Positions 8,688 to 37,427 of a stretch of DNA of 64,000 nucleotides are shown one piece after another (position 1 is the stretch's first letter; each line of letters begins with the position of its first letter). The notes under the pieces were generated by a model. The model was given only the letters and a program-made list of their open reading frames with translations. It was not told the origin of the DNA and searched no databases. The DNA comes from an uncultured Candidatus Nitrosopumilus sp. (lineage in GTDB: Archaea > Thermoproteota > Nitrososphaeria > Nitrososphaerales > Nitrosopumilaceae). The translations under genes and the position numbers were made by a program. The stretch is from NCBI GenBank assembly GCA_905612485.1, contig CAJQSE010000026.1, positions 40,050 through 104,049 on the forward strand. Direction: 5' to 3'.

Positions 8688-8789
8688 GCCGAGGTCGCCT
8701 AGCCTGGTAGGGCGCGCGCCTGGAAATTGTTAAACCATAAAGCGCGTTCTCGCAAGGGAACGGGAGTTCAAATCTCCCTCTCGGCGCCA
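8688..8789 (+). tRNA. tRNA-Ser (anticodon GGA), with a 15-nt intron and encoded CCA
   Basis: Acceptor GCCGAGG pairs with TCTCGGC (one G-T pair). The D stem is GCCT/GGGC, the anticodon stem CGCGC/GCGCG, and the loop CTGGA-A...A carries anticodon GGA. A long variable arm (TTCTC-GCAA-GGGAA) identifies a class II tRNA, and the T arm is GGGAG-TTCAAAT-CTCCC. Discriminator G is followed by a genomic CCA. The anticodon loop closes only if about 15 bases after position 37 are removed. An upstream TATA-like ATTTATAAT sits around 8644-8652. Confidence 0.93.
8726..8740 (+). other. Intron in tRNA-Ser anticodon loop
   Basis: Fifteen bases between positions 37 and 38, the canonical archaeal tRNA intron site. 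Removal restores a 7-base loop and a perfect 5-bp anticodon stem. The intron is too short for the full relaxed bulge-helix-bulge to be judged by eye, and the exact cut points could shift by a base or two in the A-rich junctions. EndA at 38853-39416 is a candidate subunit of the splicing enzyme. Confidence 0.82.
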
Positions 8790-32205: not shown

Positions 32206-34272
32206 ATGGCTGGAAATCCTTTCACTCAAATAGTTTTTGATTTGTTCATTATCTCTGCTATTTTAATTACTGCATACACTTGCAATTTTTATTATCTTGT
32301 TTTTCTTGCTAATAAAAGAAATACGATTGCTAAAACTGTTGATATAGGAACTCCTTCTGTAACAATCCAACTTCCAATTTACAATGAAAAATATGTTGCA
32401 AAACGACTTGTTGACGCTGTTTGCAATTTGGATTATCCTAAAGATCAAATGACTATCATGGTTTTAGATGACTCTGATGATAATACTGTTGATGTACTTG
32501 AAAAAACTGTTAACTATTACAAAACTCAAGGATTTCAAATTGAACATGTACGACGTGGAACACGAAAAGGGTACAAAGCTGGTGCTTTAAAATATGCAAT
32601 GCAAATTACTGATTCTGAACTTGTAGCAATATTTGATGCTGATTTTATTCCTCCAACCTGGTTTCTTAAAAAAGCAATTCCACATTTTTCAAAACCAAAT
32701 ATTGGTTTGATTCAATGTCGTTGGGGTCATGTGAATGAAAATTATTCTACTATTACACAGGTACAGGCACTTAGTATTGATTTTCATATGCTTATTGAAC
32801 AAAAAGCAAAAAGTAATTCACATTTGTTTATGAATTTTAATGGTACTGCTGGAATTTGGAAACGTGATTGTATTGAAGATGCTGGAGGTTGGCATACTGC
32901 AACTTTAGTTGAAGATCTTGATCTAAGTTACAGAGCACAAATGAAAGGATGGAAATGTGTCTTTTTACCTGATATTGTAGTTGATGCGGAACTTCCTGCA
33001 CAAATGAATGCTGCAAAAAGACAACAATTCCGTTGGGCAAAAGGTTCCATTCAATGTGCAACAAAATTACTTTTTGATATTGCTGTAAAACGTAAAGTTT
33101 CCATTGAGGCAAAGATTCAAGCTTTCATTCAACTTACACGTCATATTGTTTATCCGTTAATGTTAATACAATTTTTAGCCTTACCTGTTCTTTTGGCAGG
33201 ACAAGTTAATCTTTATGTTGTTAGTTTTCTACCTATCATTACATTTGCAACATATCTTGCAATGGGACCTGGTGCATATATTCTGATTATTCAAAACATG
33301 TATGGTAAATCGTGGAAGTCTAAAGTTAAGCTATTGCCTGCATTATTGATATACAATGCTGGAATGTCTGTAAATAATACAGTTGCAGTTTTTGATGCAG
33401 TCTTTGGCAGGAAAAATGAGTTTCTTAGAACTCCAAAATATGGAATAATCAATAAAAATGATGATTGGAAAGGTAAGGCATATAATTTACCTTTTACACA
33501 AACCACTCTTTTGGAAATCTTTTTTGGTGTCTATGGTACATTGGCAATTTTCATTTCAATATTTTCAAACAATCCTGTGTTTGTACCTATTATTGCAATT
33601 CAAACCATTGGATTTTTCTATATTGCTTACATGAGTTTGGCTCATACTCAATTTAAAAGAAATAAATCAAGTGAACAACGTAAAATGACGAAGAAAGAGA
33701 AAATGGCAAGTACTGTTTACAAATTATCAATGGTTGGAATTTTGGGATTAATTATTTTTGGAGGATTTATGGCAATTAATGGATATAATTCAGACATTTA
33801 TCCTCTGGATAGGATAAGAGGACATTTTGATGGTATTATAGGCTCGTCTGATCCAGATACCATTCGTGCTCATTTAATTGCAATCCAATTAGATTTGGAA
33901 CCAATGTTGGAGAGATTGCCTGAAACTACTGATACTCATAGTCAAATTATTTCTAAAAATCCAGTTTGGATGTTTCCAACTGAATCAACTAATTTTATTA
34001 GAATACAAAATGATGTAAATTCCATGCTGCAAAGTGTTAACACTCTTTCAACTATTCCTCAAGATAATTCTGCATATCATACTGGAATGCTTGACATAAA
34101 TGATAGGGCTTTTCTATTACGCCTTAACATTATGGATGCAACTCCATACATGTATGTGAGTATTGCAAATGTATTTTCAAGTATAATCTGGATTGCTGTA
34201 ATTATTGGAATCTTTACTGCACTAAAAAGGAAGAGAACTCAACTTAAAGAATCTGATACAATTGGCGTTTAA
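32206..34272 (+). CDS. Family 2 glycosyltransferase, processive type, membrane-bound
   Basis: 688 aa. A first membrane segment (about 10-30) leads to a cytosolic GT2 domain: VLDDSDDNTVD, IFDADFIPP, LVEDLDLSYRA and the QQFRWAKG (Q-x-x-R-W) motif typical of cellulose/hyaluronan-synthase-like enzymes. Several membrane segments follow, then after about residue 520 an outside-facing stretch of roughly 120 residues and a last membrane segment before the basic ALKRKRTQLKE end. Makes a surface or secreted polysaccharide, or a lipid-linked sugar. The product is not readable. Its 3' end overlaps the convergent coiled-coil gene by 4 bases. Confidence 0.88.
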   Translation: MAGNPFTQIVFDLFIISAILITAYTCNFYYLVFLANKRNTIAKTVDIGTPSVTIQLPIYNEKYVAKRLVDAVCNLDYPKDQMTIMVLDDSDDNTVDVLEKTVNYYKTQGFQIEHVRRGTRKGYKAGALKYAMQITDSELVAIFDADFIPPTWFLKKAIPHFSKPNIGLIQCRWGHVNENYSTITQVQALSIDFHMLIEQKAKSNSHLFMNFNGTAGIWKRDCIEDAGGWHTATLVEDLDLSYRAQMKGWKCVFLPDIVVDAELPAQMNAAKRQQFRWAKGSIQCATKLLFDIAVKRKVSIEAKIQAFIQLTRHIVYPLMLIQFLALPVLLAGQVNLYVVSFLPIITFATYLAMGPGAYILIIQNMYGKSWKSKVKLLPALLIYNAGMSVNNTVAVFDAVFGRKNEFLRTPKYGIINKNDDWKGKAYNLPFTQTTLLEIFFGVYGTLAIFISIFSNNPVFVPIIAIQTIGFFYIAYMSLAHTQFKRNKSSEQRKMTKKEKMASTVYKLSMVGILGLIIFGGFMAINGYNSDIYPLDRIRGHFDGIIGSSDPDTIRAHLIAIQLDLEPMLERLPETTDTHSQIISKNPVWMFPTESTNFIRIQNDVNSMLQSVNTLSTIPQDNSAYHTGMLDINDRAFLLRLNIMDATPYMYVSIANVFSSIIWIAVIIGIFTALKRKRTQLKESDTIGV

Positions 34273-35669
34273 GAAATATTTAGATCATTTCTAATCTCAT
34301 CTACTGCTCTAATTCCATAAATGTCTCTTACTTGTTGAATTCTAACTGATTCTTTTAACATGTCTCTCCCAATAGCATTTGTTAGAATTGAATATACATC
34401 ACTAAATCTAATTTCCCATTTATCTGCACAATCTAAAATTTTACTAACTGCCCATTGTCTAACTTCGTAAGGTAGAGGTATTTTTTCACCTGATTCAATT
34501 GATATTTTATCAAATAGGTTTACAATTTCTGAAGTAAGACTTGCCATTTTTTCTAAATCTTTTGATTCTCCGTATTTTGACTCTGTATTCATTCTGATGT
34601 TTGATTGGTATTCTGATAGTTTCAGTAATGCCATCATTTCCTTTGATGAATCACTAGATGCTTTGTTTGTAACATTTCTAACTGATTGGATTTCTTGAAA
34701 TAATTTTTCAGATTTTTTATGAAATTCTGCTGTAGATGCATCTTGTCTTTTTAGAGTGTTTGCTGTTGAATCTGCTCTTTTTGATAATGAACCAATCTCA
34801 GTCTCAATTTTATCTATTTTGCCTCCTAATTCTTTAATTGATTCTAAACTGATGACATCACTGGAATTTACACTTGATGAGACTGTCTCAAATTGTTGTT
34901 TGAGACCATCTATTATGCCTCCTAATGAGTCAATTTTTGATGCTTTTGATGATATTACATCAATTGAAATTTTGATTGCTTCTAATTCTGCATTGAGATT
35001 TGATGTGCCCGCTACTCCTTCAATTATTTTTTCAAATTCTTGTTTAAGACTTGAAACTACTTGAGTTCCTGTACTCAGATTCTCCGTTTTTTCAGAAATT
35101 TCTTCTATATTTTCTTTTAATTTATTCATCTCAGATGTAATTTCTAAAAATGAATTAGTCTTTCCAGACACTTCTCTTAGATCATCTCTTACTTCATCAA
35201 TTCTTTGAGCAATTTTAATAATCATCTGAGAATTATTTGTAATTGAATTCATACTTTCATCAACTTTTTGAGATATCTCTTGAGTTTTTGATGTTTTTTG
35301 TATTTCTGAAATTTTATTTAATTCATTTTCAAGTTTTTCAGTTTGATTGTTGATTTTATTAATTAAATTGGATTGTGTTCTAACTTGATTTAATCCTGCA
35401 TATAATTTCTGTGTATCATCTTCTATTATGTTAATTTGTTTTGATTGTTTTTGAATATGCTCTAATGTTGATGTTAGTGTATCTATCATTCCTTTCATTG
35501 ATACAAGGACTTTTTGATTTTCACCAAAAATTTTTGACATCACTTTAATTTCTTTTTGTAATGCCTTATTGGAATCTGAAACTGATGCTACTTTCTTTAA
35601 AACTGTTGCTGGATTTGGTTGTCTTTTAACAGTCTTGATTACTTTTTTCTTACTTGTTTTAGATGCCAT
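34269..35669 (-). CDS. Long coiled-coil protein (466 aa)
   Basis: No enzyme motif. A basic N terminus (SKKKVIKTVKRQPNP) is followed by about 300 residues of Gln/Glu/Lys/Ser heptad-like sequence with repeated INNQTEKLENEL-type blocks, then a distinct C-terminal domain of about 110 residues (IPLPYEVRQWAVSKILDCADKWEIRFSDVYSIL). The C-terminal part suggests a conserved folded domain. Could be a structural or chromosome-associated protein. It faces the GT2 gene convergently. Confidence 0.75.
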   Translation of the reverse strand: MASKTSKKKVIKTVKRQPNPATVLKKVASVSDSNKALQKEIKVMSKIFGENQKVLVSMKGMIDTLTSTLEHIQKQSKQINIIEDDTQKLYAGLNQVRTQSNLINKINNQTEKLENELNKISEIQKTSKTQEISQKVDESMNSITNNSQMIIKIAQRIDEVRDDLREVSGKTNSFLEITSEMNKLKENIEEISEKTENLSTGTQVVSSLKQEFEKIIEGVAGTSNLNAELEAIKISIDVISSKASKIDSLGGIIDGLKQQFETVSSSVNSSDVISLESIKELGGKIDKIETEIGSLSKRADSTANTLKRQDASTAEFHKKSEKLFQEIQSVRNVTNKASSDSSKEMMALLKLSEYQSNIRMNTESKYGESKDLEKMASLTSEIVNLFDKISIESGEKIPLPYEVRQWAVSKILDCADKWEIRFSDVYSILTNAIGRDMLKESVRIQQVRDIYGIRAVDEIRNDLNIS

Positions 35670-35731
35670 ATTACATGAATTAAGAAACTAATAATAAAAA
35701 AAGTTAGGTGTAAAATAAAAAATGTAAAGAG

Positions 35732-35839
35732 TCACTTGTTTACAACTTCTGGTTCATGAAGTAATTCATGAAATGTCTTTTCAGCAAGACCATTTGTTGT
35801 CTCAATGAATCCTCTGGGACAATATTCGCATTGAATCAT
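35732..35839 (-). CDS. 35-aa CxxC mini-protein
   Basis: Not in the ORF track. ATG 35839 to TGA 35732: it begins MIQCEYCPRGFIE, so one CxxC knuckle near the N terminus, then a helix-like KTFHELLHEPEVVNK. With two more ligands from His residues (H24, H28) it could bind a metal. A TATA-like TTATTAATAG sits at about 35862-35871 and a 14-bp palindrome lies between it and the start. Unknown function. It is part of the 429-base gap between the coiled-coil gene and the antiporter. Confidence 0.6.
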   Translation of the reverse strand: MIQCEYCPRGFIETTNGLAEKTFHELLHEPEVVNK

Positions 35840-35847
35840 ATAGTACT

Positions 35848-35861
35848 GTACGGTACCGTAC
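35848..35861. promoter_or_regulatory. 14-bp perfect palindrome, operator candidate for the 35-aa gene
   Basis: GTACGGTACCGTAC is a perfect dyad 8 bases before the ATG of the 35-aa gene (minus strand), between its TATA-like sequence and the expected transcription start. In archaea a repressor bound there blocks initiation. The 14-bp symmetry is unlikely by chance in AT-rich DNA. The regulator is not known. Confidence 0.6.
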
Positions 35862-35896
35862 TATTAATAATTGGGTTATTCCAATGTAACCAAAAA

Positions 35897-35961
35897 TGCA
35901 GTCAGTTACCCCAGGTCATATCTCTTCATTTTAATCAGCTGACCTACTCATCACTCTGCAG
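35897..35961 (-). ncRNA. Box C/D guide sRNA
   Basis: Read on the minus strand: TGCAG, then C box GTGATGA, a 9-base first guide (GTAGGTCAG), D' box CTGA, spacer TTAAA, C' box ATGAAGA (one mismatch to RUGAUGA), a 17-base region ending CCTGGGGTAA, D box CTGA, and CTGCA. The flanking TGCAG and CTGCA pair to form the terminal stem of a K-turn. A TATA-like CTTTATG stands about 25 bases upstream. Such RNAs direct 2'-O-methylation of rRNA or tRNA; the second guide could pair with the conserved UACCCCGGG stretch of 23S rRNA near the peptidyl-transferase centre (inference, with a G-U pair). Confidence 0.72.
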
Positions 35962-36098
35962 TTAGATTAAGATTTCTAGGCATAAAGAGTTTCAAATTGA
36001 TAACTTTTTGACAATAATAATTTTTTAGATTTTTATTAATTTTATTTCTAAATTTTTATTGTATAATCACTTTTTAATGAAATTCGTTAATTGATTAT

Positions 36099-37427
36099 AT
36101 GCAAAATCTTTTACTTCAATTAGATCCTACTACAATTCAAAATTCTCTTACTTCTACAGCTAATACTTTGATTGAACAAATAACTCCTGAACTTCCTCAT
36201 ACAAGTTTTGTAACTGATTTAGCTTTTATCATGATTATTGGGGCTATAGTTACACTTGCATTTTTTAAAATTAAACAACCTTTGATAATTGGATATCTTT
36301 TTGCTGGAATGCTTATTGGTCCTTTGTCTCCTCTTTGGACTTGGATTTTACCTGAAAGTACTTCATCTCCTGCATTGTTAGATGGTGTTGGAATTTTATC
36401 TGATATTTCTGCACTAAATCTTTTTTCTGAAATTGGTGTTATCTTATTATTATTTGTAATTGGAATTGAATTCCCATATGCTAAAATCAAATCTATTGGA
36501 CGAGTAGCTGTAGGTGTTGGTTCTATTGGATTATTCTCTACATTAGGTGTTTTGTTTTTTACTTCAACTGCACTAGGTCTAGAATTTATGGATGCATTGT
36601 TTATTTCTGCAGCTTTATCTGTATCTAGTACTGCAATTATTGTTAAACTTTTAGAAGAGACGGGAAAAATCAAAAAAGGATCTTCTATACTTATTTTGGG
36701 TATCTTAATTGTAGAAGATATTATTGCTGTAATTTTAATTTCTACATTACAATCTGTTGCTTTAGTTGGAACTGTATCTGTGGAATCTATTGTTGTTATT
36801 GTGTTAGTTGCAGTTGGTCTTATCGTAGGAACGTTTACTCTTGGAACACGTGTTATCCCTCCTCTAATTGATAGAGTTGCAGCTGCAGAAAATCGGGAAA
36901 TTCTACTCTTGAGTGTTCTTGGTCTCTGTTTTGGTTATGCTTTACTTGCAAATATTGTGGGATTATCTGTAGCAATTGGTGCCTTTTTGGCTGGTGTTTT
37001 GGTTGCTGAGTCAAAATCAGCTGAAGTTGCAAAATTACTTTCTAGTCCTATCAAAGATATGTTTGTGGCAATATTTTTCATTTCAGTTGGTGCATTGATG
37101 GATGTTTCACAACTTGAAAATTATATTTTCATTGCAATTGCTTTGATTGCAATTGCTACTGGTATGAAGTTTGGTGGTAACATGTTAGGTAATTTTATTT
37201 TCAGACAAAAACGTGGAAAGGCACTTCGCTCTGCATTCACTTTAGCCGCCCCTCGTGGTGAATTCTCCATTGTAATTGTAAAAGTTGGAGTTGACATTGG
37301 TGCAGTAAGTGCCTTCTTGTTCCCACTTGTGGGTATTATTGCAATTATCACTGCATTTATTTCTCCATTTTTAATGAAGGCTAGTGACAAAATTATACCT
37401 GTATTAGAGGAAAAAGAAGATGCCTGA
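36099..37427 (+). CDS. CPA2-type cation/proton antiporter (Kef/NapA-like)
   Basis: 442 aa with about 12-13 membrane segments. Typical CPA2 stretches are IKQPLIIGYLFAGMLIGP, FSEIGVILLLFVIGIEF, DALFISAALSVSSTAIIVKLL and GLSVAIGAFLAGVLVAES. No cytosolic TrkA-N domain follows, so it is the short membrane-only form. Transported ion (Na+ or K+) cannot be read. Overlaps the next gene by 8 bases. Confidence 0.92.
   Translation: MQNLLLQLDPTTIQNSLTSTANTLIEQITPELPHTSFVTDLAFIMIIGAIVTLAFFKIKQPLIIGYLFAGMLIGPLSPLWTWILPESTSSPALLDGVGILSDISALNLFSEIGVILLLFVIGIEFPYAKIKSIGRVAVGVGSIGLFSTLGVLFFTSTALGLEFMDALFISAALSVSSTAIIVKLLEETGKIKKGSSILILGILIVEDIIAVILISTLQSVALVGTVSVESIVVIVLVAVGLIVGTFTLGTRVIPPLIDRVAAAENREILLLSVLGLCFGYALLANIVGLSVAIGAFLAGVLVAESKSAEVAKLLSSPIKDMFVAIFFISVGALMDVSQLENYIFIAIALIAIATGMKFGGNMLGNFIFRQKRGKALRSAFTLAAPRGEFSIVIVKVGVDIGAVSAFLFPLVGIIAIITAFISPFLMKASDKIIPVLEEKEDA

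Follow-up and report, generated by a model that had tools for sequence, protein, structure and literature searches.

The 64,000-nucleotide stretch of DNA analysed here (the window) carries on its minus strand what we read with high confidence, from comparative sequence data, as an archaeal box C/D sRNA gene of about 64 nt with one D guide directed at 23S rRNA and a D' spacer that would not serve as a guide but take part in strand exchange. Box C/D sRNAs have been catalogued best in hyperthermophiles, and ammonia-oxidizing archaea rank among the most abundant marine microbes. The element lies in an intergenic gap of a source genome of 0.95 Mb that is incomplete (74%), and the features of the locus are the following:

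35670-36098: intergenic gap holding the sRNA element, between the coiled-coil and Na+/H+ exchanger genes
34269-35669, minus strand: coiled-coil gene bordering the gap
36099-37427, plus strand: Na+/H+ exchanger gene (Pfam PF00999, E 1e-48)
35732-35839, minus strand: small ORF of 35 codons with a CxxC motif (MIQCEYCPRGFIETTNGLAEKTFHELLHEPEVVNK), downstream of the sRNA on the same strand
35982-35986, minus strand: TATA-like element TTTAT, starting at -26 from the stem
35897-35960, minus strand: box C/D sRNA core of 64 nt, both arms of the terminal stem included
35956-35960, minus strand: 5' arm of the terminal stem, TGCAG, pairing with 35897-35901 over 5 bp and covarying in relatives
35955-35953, minus strand: bulge A-G-T
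35948-35954, minus strand: box C, GTGATGA, with TGATGA invariant in our alignment A2
35939-35947, minus strand: D' spacer GTAGGTCAG, 9 nt, in a covarying helix with the D side
35935-35938, minus strand: box D', CTGA, from the sequence
35923-35929, minus strand: box C', ATGAAGA (ATGATGA in several other genera)
35912-35918, minus strand: TGACCTG, D-side strand of the internal helix and partner of the D' spacer
35906-35915, minus strand: D guide CCTGGGGTAA, complementary to 23S 2536-2545
35902-35905, minus strand: box D, CTGA, from the sequence and the alignment
35897-35901, minus strand: 3' arm of the terminal stem, CTGCA, covarying in relatives

Read along the minus strand from 35960 to 35897, the element is TGCAG A GTGATGA GTAGGTCAG CTGA TTAAA ATGAAGA GATATGACCTGGGGTAA CTGA CTGCA. 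The initial annotation had placed a guide sRNA at 35897-35961, with the C, D', C', and D boxes in order and with ends (TGCAG/CTGCA) that pair as a terminal stem. Boxes and stem are all present on the minus strand; the element does lie at this place, though its core ends at 35960 and position 35961 is a flanking C. As is characteristic of archaeal box C/D RNAs, the four boxes (C' being RUGAUGA-like) follow each other within 50-70 nt and are enclosed by a terminal stem with a kink-turn. A 3-nt bulge and tandem GA/AG pairs beside the stem make up the k-turn of box C/D RNA, and the geometry is exact in our case: 3 bases (AGT) separate the stem from the first GA of box C, and the GA of box D lies opposite. 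Deviations from the typical form are the ATGAAGA sequence of box C' and guide-side spacers of 9 and 17 nt compared to the usual 10-12. Searching both strands of the window for a stem with C, D', C', and D returned this site only, and the same search on 60 first-order Markov randomisations returned none.

Among relatives, two-sided changes were found at 4 of the 5 pairs of the terminal stem, with ungapped, box-anchored examples including CATAG/CTATG (L044), CCCGG/CCGGG (L066), TCTGG/CCAGA (L107), and GGCGG/CCGCC (L112). Across the whole modelled structure, in an alignment fitted to the covariance model, 91.5% of cells were paired and the covariation score reached 0.353, compared to 0.157 for shuffles and at most 0.073 for slid registers.

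A DNA search recovered the element from 31 of the 36 other genomes of the genus. We also trained a covariance model on 30 sequences, that of the source genome among them, and searched 300 genomes of the order, of which 163 matched (the source genome, at E 1.6e-18 as a training sequence, and 162 further ones). Of the 56 genomes sampled from the genus, 55 are among these matches, as are most of the family's other genera (a minority of its genomes returned nothing); order-wide, 28 of 64 genera are represented, and the signal is clear in two families only. Because the named carriers (Nitrosopumilus, Nitrosarchaeum, Nitrosotalea, Nitrosotenuis, and other Nitrosopumilaceae) belong there, we take the first of these families (f1) to be Nitrosopumilaceae. 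The second (f8), which we infer to be Nitrososphaeraceae, contributes around 40 genomes that match at weaker E-values and whose RNAs have diverged. In other families of the order, the pattern CTGGGGTANCTGA gave just 7 scattered matches among 36 genomes. The initial annotation had named loss of the boxes in relatives with the same neighbouring genes as an outcome that would speak against the sRNA; what we found was the opposite, with boxes and k-turn kept in genus and family. One family member (G288) carries a degenerate copy of the sRNA (L113; box C GCGATAA, guide CCTGTGG, box D CAGA); either the RNA has been lost there or the assembly is in error.

The earlier suggestion that a TATA-like element fits a transcript start at the stem agrees with the TTTAT at -26 and with similar positions in 73 family members, where TATA-like words occur 56 times at -26 to -29 and 20 times at -35. 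In all aligned members of the genus, the element lies upstream of the same small ORF (35732-35839), and further palindromes are found between the two, as might be expected if it were a cis element, i.e., a transcription-factor site or a 5' leader structure of this ORF. We consider this extremely improbable. The ORF has a TATA-like TATTAATA of its own together with an operator-like palindrome, and covariation of the stem as well as guide-target matching are features of an RNA. Moreover, several other genera retain the boxes, the guide, and the TATA-like word without the small ORF downstream, so that we regard the element as a separate gene and not a leader. The surroundings of the sRNA gene differ in several genera and its position relative to its neighbours has shifted; this relocation and the compensatory changes in the stem therefore point to an independent RNA gene.

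The D guide forms 10 of 10 possible Watson-Crick pairs with UUACCCCAGG at positions 2536-2545 of the genome's own 23S rRNA. Pairing of this guide with 23S rRNA had been proposed by eye and holds, with the difference that the best site reads UUACCCCAGG and not UACCCCGGG. It thus has the complementarity of at least 8 bp to rRNA and the paired base 5 that characterise a D guide. G35910, the fifth base from box D, faces 23S C2540, which is the predicted 2'-O-methylation site under the N+5 rule that the base opposite the fifth guide position gets modified (PMC4644070); duplexes of 8-10 bp have been reported to methylate well (PMC7089733). A match in a single genome is weak evidence because a perfect match of 10 or more consecutive bases to 16S/23S is also found at 8 of the window's 490 CTGA sites, and the comparative data must therefore carry the target. 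Counted from the universal GAUAACAGG, which we take to carry the peptidyl-transferase base A2451, the target would correspond to about E. coli 2437-2446, just before A2451, and C2540 to about E. coli 2441. The sRNA very probably directs a methyl mark to one base near the catalytic centre of the ribosome.

Almost all f1 members share the guide CTGGGGTA, and the 23S target TACCCCAG is present in every f1 and outgroup 23S that was read. The four f8 23S sequences read TACCCTAG, and f8 guides are CTAGGGTA, including in genomes whose 23S was read. With UUACCCUAGG in the 23S of this second family, CUAGGG replaces CUGGGG in the guide, and the match after the co-change spans 8 bp. Guide and target thus appear to have changed together between the families in a matched way. 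Since this co-change amounts to one evolutionary event and the f8 RNAs have diverged, we strongly favour the UUACCCCAGG site as the target of the D guide but stop short of certainty. Guide base 1 varies inside the genus, and its 23S target is invariant, so that covariation at this position says nothing for or against the pairing.

A role as rRNA folding chaperone has been proposed for some archaeal C/D sRNAs (PMC4644070), and the 23S of genome G122 offers a 9-bp match to CCCTAGTAC, the sarcin-ricin strand. It is nevertheless very unlikely that the RNA acts as a chaperone or through another such pairing (in f8, e.g., to the sarcin-ricin strand) and leaves the predicted base unmethylated, given that the N+5 position is paired and invariant when the guide is read against the UUACCCCAGG site. 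In the sarcin-ricin match, guide positions 2-3 by box D are unpaired though invariant in f8, for which we rejected this strand as the main f8 target, and one of the matched positions varies.

The initial annotation had counted two guides and called for a pairing search of both against rRNA and tRNA, which gave the 23S match for the D guide and no convincing target for the D' spacer. For the latter, the longest perfect run anchored on box D' was 5 in 16S/23S, and 30 of the 43 tRNAs of a complete relative (G035) yielded no convincing partner. A second guide next to box D', as archaeal box C/D sRNAs have it, was therefore not found; membership in this class stands regardless because orphan D' guides are known among such RNAs. 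The spacer pairs with the side of the D guide instead: its TAGGTCA (35946-35940) is complementary to TGACCTG at 35918-35912, which takes in flanking bases as well as the 5' part of the D guide.

This helix was assessed without gaps in 40 distinct representatives, with box C as the anchor of one side and box D as that of the other. Pairing between spacer bases 3-8 and D-side bases 8-13 is seen in 91% of cells, compared to at most 57% in slid registers, and the pairs occur as G-C/A-U at 5-10, U-A/G-C/C-G at 6-11, C-G/A-U/G-C/U-G at 7-12, and A-U/U-A at 8-13. When each of 15 genera was represented by a single sequence, 0 of 2000 permutations reached the observed pairing, which supports the internal helix as real. 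Together with pair 2-7, it occupies guide bases 7-10, with bases 1-6 remaining unpaired. The f8 spacer is different and, in the register c3-c7/d3-d7, has 77% of cells paired versus 56% in within-spacer shuffles (0/5000), evidence that is weaker because the f8 D side does not vary; this spacer may resemble the rRNA target itself over guide bases 3-7.

Two guides are the rule among archaeal C/D sRNAs (PMC4644070), and the RNA might be a conventional one whose D' spacer guides an undetected second target (tRNA or mRNA), with an incidental match on the D side. The conserved RGGT core of the spacer would fit such a role, and the target comparison for the spacer took in 16S/23S and 30 of the 43 G035 tRNAs. 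We still consider a dual guide unlikely: the rRNA run of 5 is short, the three bases beside D' vary freely, and covariation of spacer and D side in several pair types would not be expected from an external conserved target. The D' spacer is thus probably not a second guide, and the sRNA probably works with a single guide, its other spacer being a self-paired "anti-guide".

The proteins of a box C/D RNP are encoded in the genome, with fibrillarin (E 5e-90) and Nop5 (E 1e-67) adjacent on contig C41 and L7Ae on contig C7. Conserved boxes and k-turn, stem covariation, guide-target co-change, and these proteins together uphold the original proposal, in which a TATA-like promoter of its own serves the gene for a box C/D guide sRNA. 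We infer transcription, RNP assembly, methylation, and strand exchange along the following lines. The RNA would be transcribed from the minus strand by its own TATA promoter and trimmed to the stem, L7Ae would bind the C/D kink-turn and be joined by Nop5 and fibrillarin, and the C'/D' motif would be bound as well. In the free RNA, pairing of the D' spacer with the D guide's 5' half and adjoining flank would keep the guide partly closed. GGGUAA, left open as a toehold, would touch the 23S strand first, the rRNA would then displace the D' spacer from the D guide, and the guide would direct 2'-O-methylation of 23S C2540. We give an even chance to this view of a self-regulated single-guide sRNA, in which a conserved intramolecular anti-guide keeps the guide closed and gives way, via the toehold, to the correct rRNA. 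The internal helix could block off-target pairing of the G-rich guide or aid RNP folding.

Archaeal box C/D sRNAs of Sulfolobus, Pyrobaculum, and Methanopyrus (PMC4644070) resemble the element in length, box order, stem with k-turn, a D guide abutting box D, a target near the peptidyl-transferase centre, and the presence of genes for L7Ae, Nop5, and fibrillarin. The element differs from them by its one working guide, a 9-nt D' spacer that forms a helix with the D side and covaries with it, an own TATA-like promoter, and wide conservation, and its hosts are mesophilic ammonia oxidizers, which are absent from that seven-species catalogue. A single rRNA-targeting guide of two is shared with archaeal C/D sRNAs that have an empty or orphan D' guide, such as the empty one of a Thermoproteus tenax sRNA (PMC4644070). 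Unlike in these, however, the spacer described here has been conserved and shows covariation with the side of the guide, and it is therefore not simply a drifting orphan.

Rfam, searched at gathering and permissive thresholds, held no family for the element beyond a weak covariance-model match to sR3 (RF01133; 13.6 bits, E 0.63) that lies far under the gathering score of 41, and we rejected membership in sR3. While box C/D sRNAs as a kind are well known, we found no description of a conserved helix between spacer and guide, and the open-access literature yielded no paper on such RNAs in ammonia-oxidizing or thaumarchaeal archaea. Small RNA genes have already been annotated in Nitrosotalea devanaterra, with no details given in the passage concerned (PMC4836417), and an earlier unnamed prediction is for this reason possible. 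Since the sRNA occurs in almost every sampled genome of its genus and widely in its family, and since the methylation predicted for it by the peptidyl-transferase centre is precise, it lends itself to direct testing. To judge by the covarying helix, control or folding, and not pairing with a second target, may be what maintains the second half of an RNA of this type; this is relevant to archaeal "orphan" D' guides, for which an explanation is lacking.

The small ORF is kept beside the sRNA throughout the genus and matched no Pfam family above the cut-off. Its start codon is abutted by a near-invariant (within the genus) palindrome, ATAGTACTGTAC-G-GTACCGTACTAT at 35840-35864, that looks like an operator over a TATA element. 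Between sRNA and ORF, a dyad GGTTA-N8-TAACC (35874-35891) is partly kept in the genus and may be either a terminator hairpin or a regulator site. Elsewhere in the window, Rfam detected a tRNA of 99 nt on the plus strand (8688-8786, 41 bits) that was missed by ARAGORN and probably contains an intron.
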